Source of the DNA: Fimbriimonadales bacterium
Lineage (GTDB): Bacteria; Armatimonadota; Fimbriimonadia; Fimbriimonadales; ATM1
NCBI GenBank assembly: GCA_026129745.1
Contig: JAHCHL010000001.1
Coordinates: forward strand, 1 to 64,000
Reading direction: 5' to 3'
Length of the DNA stretch: 64,000 nucleotides
Made by a program: the position numbers and the translations under genes. The notes beneath the pieces are model-generated. The model did not search any database. It was not told where the DNA came from and worked only from the letters and a program-made list of their open reading frames with translations. Positions 14,911 to 17,995 of this stretch are shown here, piece by piece (the stretch's first letter is position 1; the number at the start of each line of letters is the position of its first letter).

Positions 14911-15144
14911 GGGGCTTTTCGACAAACCCCAAGCTGGCCCTCGGCCTTAGAATACAGCGTTTGATCGTGACTGCCAGTAGTGGGCACCGGTACAATCTCA
15001 CTCTCAAATCAGAACCTGGGGTTTCAAGCCCGATCTCGCAAGTATTCGGTTCCTGCCGTCACAACCTTGTATAATGGGGCAGTAGAAGTAAGGCGGGCAT
15101 CCAGCGAGCGAGGTAGTTGGTGGTTCCGCCGAGGAAGGGACGCA

Positions 15145-16128
15145 ATGTTTCGAATGTTTTATGTATGCTTGTTCGCTGGCACAGTGCTGAACTGTGTTCA
15201 TGCAGCCCCTCAGTATGGTTTTGATGGCCCGAAAATATTGCTCAAGACACCTGAGGGTCGCTTGGTCTCAACCACGCTTCAACAAGGACGACCTGCCTGG
15301 GGCAACTTTCAAAATGAGACAGGTCATAGCATTTGGGAGGTCTGGGACCAATCAGGAACAGAAATCTCGCATGGCACGCGAATTTCACTTCGGTTGGTAC
15401 GCGATGGGCTTTTCCTCTCTCATCAGCGAGGCGCAAGTCAGATGGTCGCGAATCGTACAATAGCTGCCGATTGGGAAACATTCGTGGTTGTTCGTGATGC
15501 AGGCGAAGGGCGAGTAAAAAACGGCGACTGGGTATACCTTAAAGCTTATGGACATGGCGACTATGTGTCGGTGAGAATGGATATGATTGGCAAACCACTG
15601 TTTGCCCAAGCCCCTTTACCTGATTCATGGGAGCGTTTTCAGTGGATAGATATCCACGACAATGAGCGGATTTATGACGTAAATCAAGTCACCACAAAAC
15701 GAACGAAGAATAATTGTGTTCTTTACGCGAGAGAAAGGCTTGGAGGTAACACCAAACTTGTTCCGAAGGGGTTGTTTAGTTTAACCAATAAGCTAAAAGT
15801 ATGCGATGTAAGGCCATCTCGGGGACACTACCTAAGTTGGAATCAGTTCTTAGCAGACGGAAATCGGGCCTGGGTAGGTCGCATGGTTGTGATTGAGACC
15901 GGGCAGGAAGAGGGACACGTCGCGGTACTCGAACAAATACACGCTGACGGCACCGTCACGATTCGCGAGTCGAACTACCCCTACGACGTTAGTGACAAGA
16001 AGCTTCCCAATGGTCCTGGCATAAGAAGCCGACGAGGTTATCCTGGTGCCATTCCGCTAGCTTCAGATGGTCGTCCACTTTCAAATTTCAAGTCGCTAAA
16101 GATAGTGGGATTGCGAACTGGGCGTTGA
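15145..16128 (+). CDS. Secreted protein with beta-trefoil-like and CHAP domains
   Basis: 327 residues. The ATG at 15145 follows GAGGAAGG; a signal peptide (MFRMFYVCLFAGTVLNCVHAA) follows directly. Residues about 25-175 contain repeats such as GPKILLKTPEGRLVSTTLQQG, GTRISLRLVRDGLFLSHQRG and GDWVYLKAYGHGDYVSVR, which resemble a fascin/ricin-like beta-trefoil. Residues about 190-320 form a CHAP-type cysteine amidase domain: NNCVLYARERLGG with the candidate catalytic Cys, GHVAVLEQI with the His and RESNYPYD with the acidic/Asn residue. CHAP enzymes cut peptidoglycan or glutathionylspermidine amide bonds. A trefoil binding module fused to CHAP suggests a secreted wall-targeting hydrolase. Confidence 0.75.
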   Translation: MFRMFYVCLFAGTVLNCVHAAPQYGFDGPKILLKTPEGRLVSTTLQQGRPAWGNFQNETGHSIWEVWDQSGTEISHGTRISLRLVRDGLFLSHQRGASQMVANRTIAADWETFVVVRDAGEGRVKNGDWVYLKAYGHGDYVSVRMDMIGKPLFAQAPLPDSWERFQWIDIHDNERIYDVNQVTTKRTKNNCVLYARERLGGNTKLVPKGLFSLTNKLKVCDVRPSRGHYLSWNQFLADGNRAWVGRMVVIETGQEEGHVAVLEQIHADGTVTIRESNYPYDVSDKKLPNGPGIRSRRGYPGAIPLASDGRPLSNFKSLKIVGLRTGR

Positions 16129-16376
16129 AGGCGTCCGTTTCCATGCTGGTCGCTCGAAAGCCGTGGCGTAGCCAGACTCGCCAGCCCGGCAACAGACGTC
16201 TGCCGCTCGGCGGGAGAGTACTACGGGCGGGTTCGGAGGGTTTCTATCCAGCTACTGCTGGCTGTGGTGAGAAAAAAGTTATCGCCGAAGATAATTTGCC
16301 CTCGCTCTCCATTTGCGAAGCCATTGCATATCCATTCCCACAGAATGCGGCGTGCGTGGCCCTATCTACGAGTGAG
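16129..16376. other. Intergenic region, no gene seen
   Basis: About 250 bp after the CHAP gene and before the inverted-repeat element. Open frames exist on both strands but their products are compositionally odd and share nothing recognisable. Together with the element and the region up to 17029 it forms a 900-bp non-coding patch. Confidence 0.35.
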
Positions 16377-16384
16377 TCGGGTGG

Positions 16385-16443
16385 CACGGACAGATTCGTT
16401 TGCAGGTCTGTGCCGGCGAGAACGTATGACGAATCTGTCCGTG
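16385..16443. repeat. REP-like palindrome, left copy
   Basis: The 15-bp arms CACGGACAGATTCGT (16385-16399) and ACGAATCTGTCCGTG (16429-16443) are perfectly complementary and enclose a 29-nt loop. The same arms, with small changes, make the right copy at 16715-16773. Confidence 0.85.
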
Positions 16444-16455
16444 AACGGCCCTCGA

Positions 16456-16688
16456 TCAGGCAATCGCTTCGCAAACATCAATCAAAATCGGAGAATCGCC
16501 TTCTGCGTGAAACGCGCGAGCGCTCGACCGCTTCCAATCGAAGTTGCTTTCAACCAGGCCGCGCCGGAGCGGATTCTCATGAATGGAGTTGATCGCAGCA
16601 CGAATCGCTTTCGGCGATAGCAATACCAAGTTCGTTCGTGAGCATGTCCTGGATCGTTGAAATTCTCGCGAAGCTTGAACTTCTGCAC
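16456..16688 (-). pseudogene. Internally deleted REP-associated tyrosine transposase (RAYT, IS200-like Y1)
   Basis: From a GTG at 16688 one frame reads QKFKLRENFNDPGHAHE and then WYCYRR, the conserved beginning of RAYT-type transposases. At about 16612 the match moves to the next frame, KAIRAAINSIHENPLRRGLV, then FDWKRSSARAF, and ends at TGA (16456). That is the conserved family C-terminus (the IDYIHxNPVRRGLV...W.WSSAR pattern). The central part carrying the HUH metal-binding motif and the catalytic Tyr is missing, so the product cannot be active. It lies exactly between two inverted REP-like palindromes. Confidence 0.82.
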
Positions 16689-16714
16689 GGGGGAGGATGC
16701 TACCCTTCGCCGTT

Positions 16715-16773
16715 CACGGACAGATTCTTTGGGAGCGTGATGTCTCCGTGGGGTCATGAAGAATTTGTCCGTG
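16715..16773. repeat. REP-like palindrome, right copy (inverted relative to the left copy)
   Basis: Arms CACGGACAGATTCTT (16715-16729) and AAGAATTTGTCCGTG (16759-16773) differ from perfect complementarity at one position and enclose 29 nt. Size and loop length equal those of the left copy. Confidence 0.85.
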
Positions 16774-16970
16774 CCACCCGACCTCACACTTGCAGGGGAA
16801 AGTCTCCAAGAGGGGATGGGGTAAGCCTGGCCACCCGGCCGACATTCGCGCTGGGCGACGTCGGGAAGGTGTTTTGGGTTCGCGGCGCATGAGTTTCGCC
16901 ACGGGGCGAATTCGGCCCGTTCTCCGAACCCAGCAGCGTGACGATTCCGGGATAGAATGACAACGGCCGG

Positions 16971-16994
16971 CAGCCGACCGAATCCGGTCGGCTG
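16971..16994. repeat. Strong hairpin upstream of the nuclease-like gene
   Basis: A perfect 10-bp stem (CAGCCGACCG / CGGTCGGCTG) with an AATC loop, 36 nt before the ATG at 17030. It is not followed by a T run, so it is not a standard terminator. It could be an operator, an mRNA stability element or a further mobile-element scar. Confidence 0.6.
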
Positions 16995-17029
16995 CTGGGC
17001 GTTTGGCCGCCGTAGGCGACGGGTAGAAA

Positions 17030-17995
17030 ATGGAGTCAAGCATTGGTTCTTTGGAACTTCCCGCTGGCGCTGCCCGATTAGTGTATCGCTTCATGCAGCG
17101 TTGCGAAAACGTCTCGCCAAGGACTGCTTGGCTGACCAAAAACGTTGAAGAAATAGACCCGTCACTCGAAGATAGCGATAGAGTCATTCTCCATTTACCG
17201 GAGCCGTGGCTTCCACTCTTCAAGGCGATGTTCATTGTCGCACGCTCCTGCCGCGAATTACTGCATGAACAACAAGTTGAGGTAGCAAAACATGTCTGTG
17301 AAGGGTTGCCACCAATAGGCAGAGTTCCAAACCTGGATGACGTTCTCAGCAAGAAGTTGCAGCCGGTTAGACTTGACTTGCGCAATTTTTTTGGTCATGC
17401 CTACGCAGCTTGCGTCTACAGCCGAATAGTTCGAGCAGGATTCGATTGTGAGTTCGTGAGGCACATCGACCATAAGAAGACTCCTGACCTGTTAAGTAGA
17501 GAAGGAGGCGTGTATGTCGAGTGTAAGGACGCTCTTAGCGATGCGGGAGTTTCTGGGTCCGACGAAGACGTTGTGCGCAAATTGCAGTGCATGATACGCA
17601 TTGCAGATCAGCAATTGTCTGCCATCGATCCGAGGAATGAGTTTGAACACGTCATAGCCCTGGATTTGCCGGAAGGAGTCGTATCAAGGTTTAGGGAGAT
17701 GCGAGAACCAAATCGGGAACAGCTTGCTAGAGCGATTTTCGGGTTACCAGGCATTTCCCCTTGTGGCACCTGGATCGACCGGGAGCCGATCATTGATAAC
17801 CCGAGCCGTGTCATCTTGACCGACTTCGACTTTGGCATCCACTCAGCCAATCCCGCTCGAGCGATTCAGAGAGAACCCATTTGGTTCGCTCCAATGTTCC
17901 GCGCCGCCAATACCGAACGCCTAAGTCGTTTCGTTCAATCTATTCTCTCAGTTGATTCCGAGCCGCCAGAACCAATTGAGGATGTATCGAGATAG
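17030..17995 (+). CDS. Lone protein with a PD-(D/E)XK nuclease-like core
   Basis: 321 residues, no signal peptide. The central region carries KTPDLLSREGGVYVECKD: Pro152-Asp153 about ten residues before Glu164-x-Lys166, the arrangement of the PD-(D/E)XK nuclease superfamily, preceded by a helix (AYAACVYSRIVRAGFD) as in that fold. The N-terminal 110 residues and the C-terminal 140 residues match no family I know. It stands alone, 250 bp downstream of the MITE-like relic and just before uvrA; the adjacent DNA is non-coding. A role in restriction, defence or repair is possible but only the core motif supports it. Confidence 0.65.
   Translation: MESSIGSLELPAGAARLVYRFMQRCENVSPRTAWLTKNVEEIDPSLEDSDRVILHLPEPWLPLFKAMFIVARSCRELLHEQQVEVAKHVCEGLPPIGRVPNLDDVLSKKLQPVRLDLRNFFGHAYAACVYSRIVRAGFDCEFVRHIDHKKTPDLLSREGGVYVECKDALSDAGVSGSDEDVVRKLQCMIRIADQQLSAIDPRNEFEHVIALDLPEGVVSRFREMREPNREQLARAIFGLPGISPCGTWIDREPIIDNPSRVILTDFDFGIHSANPARAIQREPIWFAPMFRAANTERLSRFVQSILSVDSEPPEPIEDVSR

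Follow-up and report, generated by a model that had tools for sequence, protein, structure and literature searches.

The window, a 64-kb stretch of Armatimonadota DNA, contains a 405-bp unit that consists of two inverted 59-bp palindromes and the remains of a transposase gene between them, much as an earlier note on this DNA had described it. Palindrome B (16385-16443) has perfect 15-bp arms, and palindrome A (16715-16773) has 15-bp arms with a single G-T mismatch; each has a 29-nt loop and carries a GGGTGG head that points outward. Folding as single-stranded DNA, compared with shuffled sequences, gave z values of -5.6 for 16385-16443 and -5.1 for 16715-16773. These palindromes are the sole hairpins of their class (a 14-bp arm with no more than 1 mismatch and a loop of 24 to 40 nt) in the entire window, and five Markov-simulated 64-kb sequences contained none. 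The outer inverted repeats, previously described as perfect over 16 bp, are indeed perfect but one base longer (17/17 bp, 16376-16392 and 16766-16782), and 21 of 22 bp match when the comparison is extended to 22 bp.

The gene belongs to the RAYT (TnpAREP) family. Two pieces of it, both on the minus strand and in different frames, lie between the palindromes. Alignment to an intact RAYT encoded in the same genome (referred to below as the C6 RAYT) shows 72% identity for the N-terminal piece (16590-16688) and 78% identity for the C-terminal piece (16462-16623), in agreement with the earlier claim that the termini were kept and the core was lost. The HUH motif is absent from the window copy, having been removed by the deletion, and the codon for the catalytic Tyr, TAC in the C6 RAYT, is TCC (Ser). 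The HUH motif, the WQ motif, and this Tyr are invariant across nine aligned RAYTs. Because the HUH motif is missing and Ser occupies the Tyr position, the window copy is a pseudogene of the family and not a working member. Open reading frames of 185, 118, and 223 aa that run over the unit were dismissed as frame noise; Pfam matches were insignificant for the three minus-strand frames tested. The features of the locus are as follows.

16376..16392, no strand: left member of the 17-bp outer inverted repeat, without mismatch to 16766-16782
16379..16443, plus strand: palindrome B, the downstream REP; GGGTGG head (16379-16384) facing outward, hairpin at 16385-16443, inner tail GAACGG
16456..16617, minus strand: C-terminal remnant of the RAYT pseudogene (SPKAIRAAINSIHENPLRRGL...EAIA*), in a frame different from that of the N-terminal remnant and with Ser in place of the catalytic Tyr
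16610..16617, minus strand: deletion junction TCGCCGAA; shared short repeat, 325 bp missing relative to the intact copy
16618..16688, minus strand: N-terminal remnant of the RAYT pseudogene (VQKFKLRENFNDPGHAHERTWYCYR); 72% identity to intact RAYT residues 2-33
16715..16779, minus strand: palindrome A, the upstream REP; GGGTGG head (16774-16779) facing outward, hairpin at 16715-16773, inner tail GAACGG
16766..16782, no strand: outer inverted repeat, right copy; pairs with the left copy at 16376-16392
16814..16841, minus strand: flank outside palindrome A; 28 bp, 93% identical to C6:81177-81204, with an extra GGGTGGC motif

Two neighboring features may be mentioned here. The product of the gene at 14980-16128 has a CHAP domain at its C terminus (28.4 bits, cutoff 26). 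On the other side, a separate 42-bp inverted repeat (16962-17003; 19-bp arms, 89% complementary, 4-nt gap) immediately precedes the gene at 17030 and is terminator-like on the minus strand.

Intact copy and other palindromes in the genome

The available genome is a draft of 2.62 Mb in 20 contigs, ~95% complete. It encodes an intact 186-aa RAYT at C6:81323-81880, flanked by the same palindromes, which bears out the proposal that the window locus is the relic of a REP-associated transposon with an intact family member elsewhere in the genome. The C6 protein contains EHIH as its HUH motif, YIHTNP as its Y motif, and a WQ motif. It scores 82.5 bits (cutoff 80) against the NCBIfam model NF047646 (REP-associated tyrosine transposase, REP_Tyr_transpos) and a borderline 22.9 bits, just below the threshold of 23, against Pfam Y1_Tnp. 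A second full-length RAYT, at C17:2727-3275, has several small deletions relative to the C6 copy, with the frame changed and then restored; these indels may reflect either true decay or assembly error.

A genome-wide search for the palindromes recovered 14 of them at 11 loci, so the palindromes are not unique. Eight of these loci carry one palindrome each and fall into two sets. At C7:201, C7:2612, C4:13686, and C17:8314, palindrome A is accompanied by a short stretch of the RAYT leader. At C4:16006, C4:17105, C6:80289, and C17:38961, there is a single gene-free palindrome of ~70 bp with outward heads on both sides; at C4:17105, one of the two heads is mutated and the left flank has diverged. 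Compared with the full unit, the gene-free palindromes of these four loci correspond to its left flank, then to palindrome B from the loop through the right arm, and then to its right flank, which is the arrangement expected after recombination between the outer arm of palindrome A and the inner arm of palindrome B. Loss of the gene together with one palindrome would thus explain them, and the reverse order, insertion of a gene and one REP into a two-headed palindrome, is also possible. A more general scheme, in which the outer arm of one REP recombines with the inner arm of its partner, so that the RAYT and one REP are lost and the two-headed hairpin that is left could spread like a REPIN, with the window copy representing a stalled route through internal deletion, appears doubtful.

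Homology among the related copies runs well past the palindromes. The segments C6:81177-83730 and C17:2581-5107, which start at the left flank of the unit, are 96% identical over 2.6 kb. Shared flanks of this extent point to duplication of larger segments as the means of spread, rather than movement of a unit with defined ends, and unit-wise transposition was rejected as the origin of the other copies. The regions around the palindromes resemble joints between repeated segments of a gene-cassette-like kind. Within C4:6000-25000, C7:1-12000, and C17:1-19000, there are stretches of several hundred bases that are 94 to 97% identical and end beside palindromes, such as C7:2170-2754 and C4:13244-13833, with unrelated genes between the copies.

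Conservation of the hairpins among relatives

Between the window and C6 units, the hairpin stems are identical at 59 of 60 positions, the loops at 20 of 32 and 15 of 31 aligned columns, and the gene remnants at 76 to 79%. In another genus of the family (genome G005), the RAYTs are ~50 to 55% identical and are flanked by hairpins of the same polarity, with an outward GTGTGC or GGGTGG head, a stem of ~14 to 16 bp, a loop of ~30 nt, and an inner GAAC tail. Among 17 distinct hairpins (a set that leaves out the four own-genome rows C7a, C7b, C4a, and C17c), 12 of the 15 stem pairs have changed on both sides, and none of 500 shuffles reached the covariation score. The hairpins of the relatives were picked by an inverted-repeat scan, which inflates the percentage of paired positions; their heads, tails, and positions were not subject to this selection.

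An alignment scan identified 80 RAYT loci in Planctomycetota, Armatimonadota, and Zixibacteria, 75 of them with enough flanking sequence. An outward [GT]GTG[GC]C head with a hairpin was present on both sides of the gene at 38 of these 75 loci, versus 0 to 2 in controls. A single-sequence scan of genome contigs with the intact RAYT gave no match. The nearest named RAYT loci are those of Armatimonadota (B31T1B5 and H1_ARM1, the latter being CP054189), which places the window in that phylum and probably in Fimbriimonadales. Since many hairpins at the wider set of loci have loops of just 3 to 15 nt, a long loop seems to be particular to this branch. By these comparisons, the palindromes are functional parts of the RAYT element. 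RAYT fragments with only the N-terminal or only the C-terminal part are numerous in the relatives (e.g., L074, L076, and L072 in genome G001 and L077 and L079 in G005), and RAYT decay looks common in this group.

Loss of the gene and alternative explanations

Relative to the C6 RAYT, the window copy lacks 325 bp; as this number is not a multiple of 3, the loss shifts the frame. In C6, the ends of the missing segment are TCGGCGAA and TCGCCGAA, 8-bp near-repeats, and the window retains a single TCGCCGAA at 16610-16617, so the loss probably occurred by slippage or by microhomology-mediated joining across the short repeat. The change from Tyr to Ser is independent of this deletion. Over ~77 codons shared by the remnants and the C6 gene, most differences are synonymous (pS of 0.57, pN of 0.12, pN/pS of 0.22; Fisher P of 9e-11). 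If the window copy had already been nonfunctional when the two lineages separated, roughly half of the divergence would have accumulated neutrally, and a pN/pS much closer to 0.5 would be expected. The low ratio indicates a gene that was functional until recently. The relic is thus a diverged sister of the C6 RAYT that worked for most of its separate history and was broken recently, and not a degraded offshoot of the C6 copy as it exists today.

We consider it highly probable (~0.93) that the locus is a RAYT/REPtron-type element, that is, an HUH/Y1 transposase gene between outward-facing, GTGG-headed hairpin REPs, whose function was recently lost. The sequences show that divergence from the C6 copy, with the coding sequence and hairpin stems conserved, came before the loss of gene function through the frame-shifting 325-bp deletion and the loss of the catalytic tyrosine. 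By analogy with the studied TnpAREP proteins, the enzyme would have recognized single-stranded hairpins and cut beside them before it decayed. Some properties speak against the RAYT/REP assignment: the 59-bp hairpins, with their 29-nt loop, exceed the usual REP length of 20 to 40 bp, the Y1_Tnp score of the intact copy is borderline, and the heads read GTGG, not GTAG, although a GT[AG]G head is accepted for REPs (PMC6006769).

The earlier note had gone further and called the unit MITE-like. Its shape fits this term, as it is a short element (405 bp) with terminal inverted repeats (17 bp) and no active transposase; MITE behavior is not supported. MITEs occur as multiple non-autonomous copies, and the search for further 405-bp units returned the window copy only: the deleted form was found nowhere else in the genome and in none of 60 relatives, all from outside the genus of the host. 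MITE amplification was rejected on these grounds, and the single copy shows no sign of mobility. While the relic itself cannot act, its stems and outer heads are intact, so mobilization in trans by the C6 RAYT is possible, and the ends could still serve as its substrates. That the unit is indeed a functional non-autonomous element moved in this way would agree with the near-identity of its stems and outward heads to those of the intact unit and with the presence of an intact RAYT in the genome; the reading is nevertheless improbable, given the single copy, the shared flanks that place related units within larger duplications (96% identity over 2.6 kb), and the observation that established REPtrons apparently are not mobile as whole units, though mobilization of REPs may occur (PMC6006769).

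Two other explanations deserve less credit. The draft state of the assembly in 20 contigs, the location of other copies near contig ends, and the several small indels of the C17 copy raise the question of whether the internal deletion could be an assembly artifact, with the RAYT intact in the cell. However, with ~23% divergence from the other copies, the relic cannot have come from their collapse; in addition, it has the independent Tyr-to-Ser change, and the junction falls at a short repeat, as junctions of real deletions often do; an artifact is therefore very unlikely. Still harder to credit is the idea that the palindromes are host regulatory hairpins, such as terminators, between the CHAP gene that ends at 16128 and the gene at 17030, with the transposase remnant being incidental. 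They are intergenic and fold strongly, as such hairpins should, but RAYTs of other genera lie between the same hairpins, whose polarity is maintained and whose stems covary, and neither palindrome has a terminator-like T tract, for which reason a terminator role was rejected.

Relation to known systems

Taken by itself, the locus is a case of ordinary mobile-element decay: a RAYT element, broken not long ago and still with intact REP ends, which represents a known kind of element in a little-studied phylum and a new host. It is useful mainly for showing how the decay happened. In a literature search judged by titles, no paper on RAYTs in Armatimonadota was recognized; the data extend a long-looped, GTGG-headed RAYT/REP system to a genus of that phylum. 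With a copy caught soon after its loss of function, an intact copy, and gene-free palindromes, a single genome offers testable intermediates that bear on how REP palindromes become separated from their transposase or persist after its loss.

Like the RAYT/TnpAREP REPtrons, the element combines a Y1 transposase gene with two inverted hairpins that have outward GT[AG]G-type heads (Nunvar 2010, PMC2817692; PMC6006769; PMC8266576), the intact C6 copy has the HUH, WQ, and Y---NP motifs, and the hairpin stems covary between relatives. It differs from them in the loop, which is ~29 to 35 nt here versus a few nt, and in that the window gene is dead. REPs are 20 to 40 bp long and often reach high copy numbers, whereas the palindromes found here, few in number and long, are REP-like by position and head and may be regarded as a long-looped, low-copy variant. 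The four gene-free, two-headed palindromes of ~70 bp, each with one hairpin, resemble the REP doublets known as REPINs (Bertels and Rainey 2011, PMC3116915), in which an inverted REP pair folds into one hairpin that serves as the replicating unit, but occur at only four sites, each composed of the outer flanks of the unit and its downstream palindrome.

In TIRtrons (TIRYT; Di Nocera 2013, PMC3733652), too, long terminal inverted repeats enclose a RAYT-like gene, and some of these repeats contain self-complementary tracts. In contrast to those TIRs, which are not REPs, the repeats described here are headed hairpins (a GTGG head plus a hairpin), and the GGGGWSAS motif, present in most TIRYT, was not found in the outer repeat sequence. 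The subclass linked to TIRYT, 2.1, is listed with a protein of 238 aa, versus 186 aa here (PMC6006769). The EHIH and YIHTNP motifs of the C6 RAYT exactly match no subclass row of the table in that paper, subclass 2.6 being the nearest by motif. Finally, IS200/IS605 elements share the HUH/Y1 nuclease superfamily with the C6 RAYT, in line with its Y1_Tnp score at the Pfam threshold, but the C6 protein falls within the REP-associated NCBIfam model and the unit has no accessory gene.
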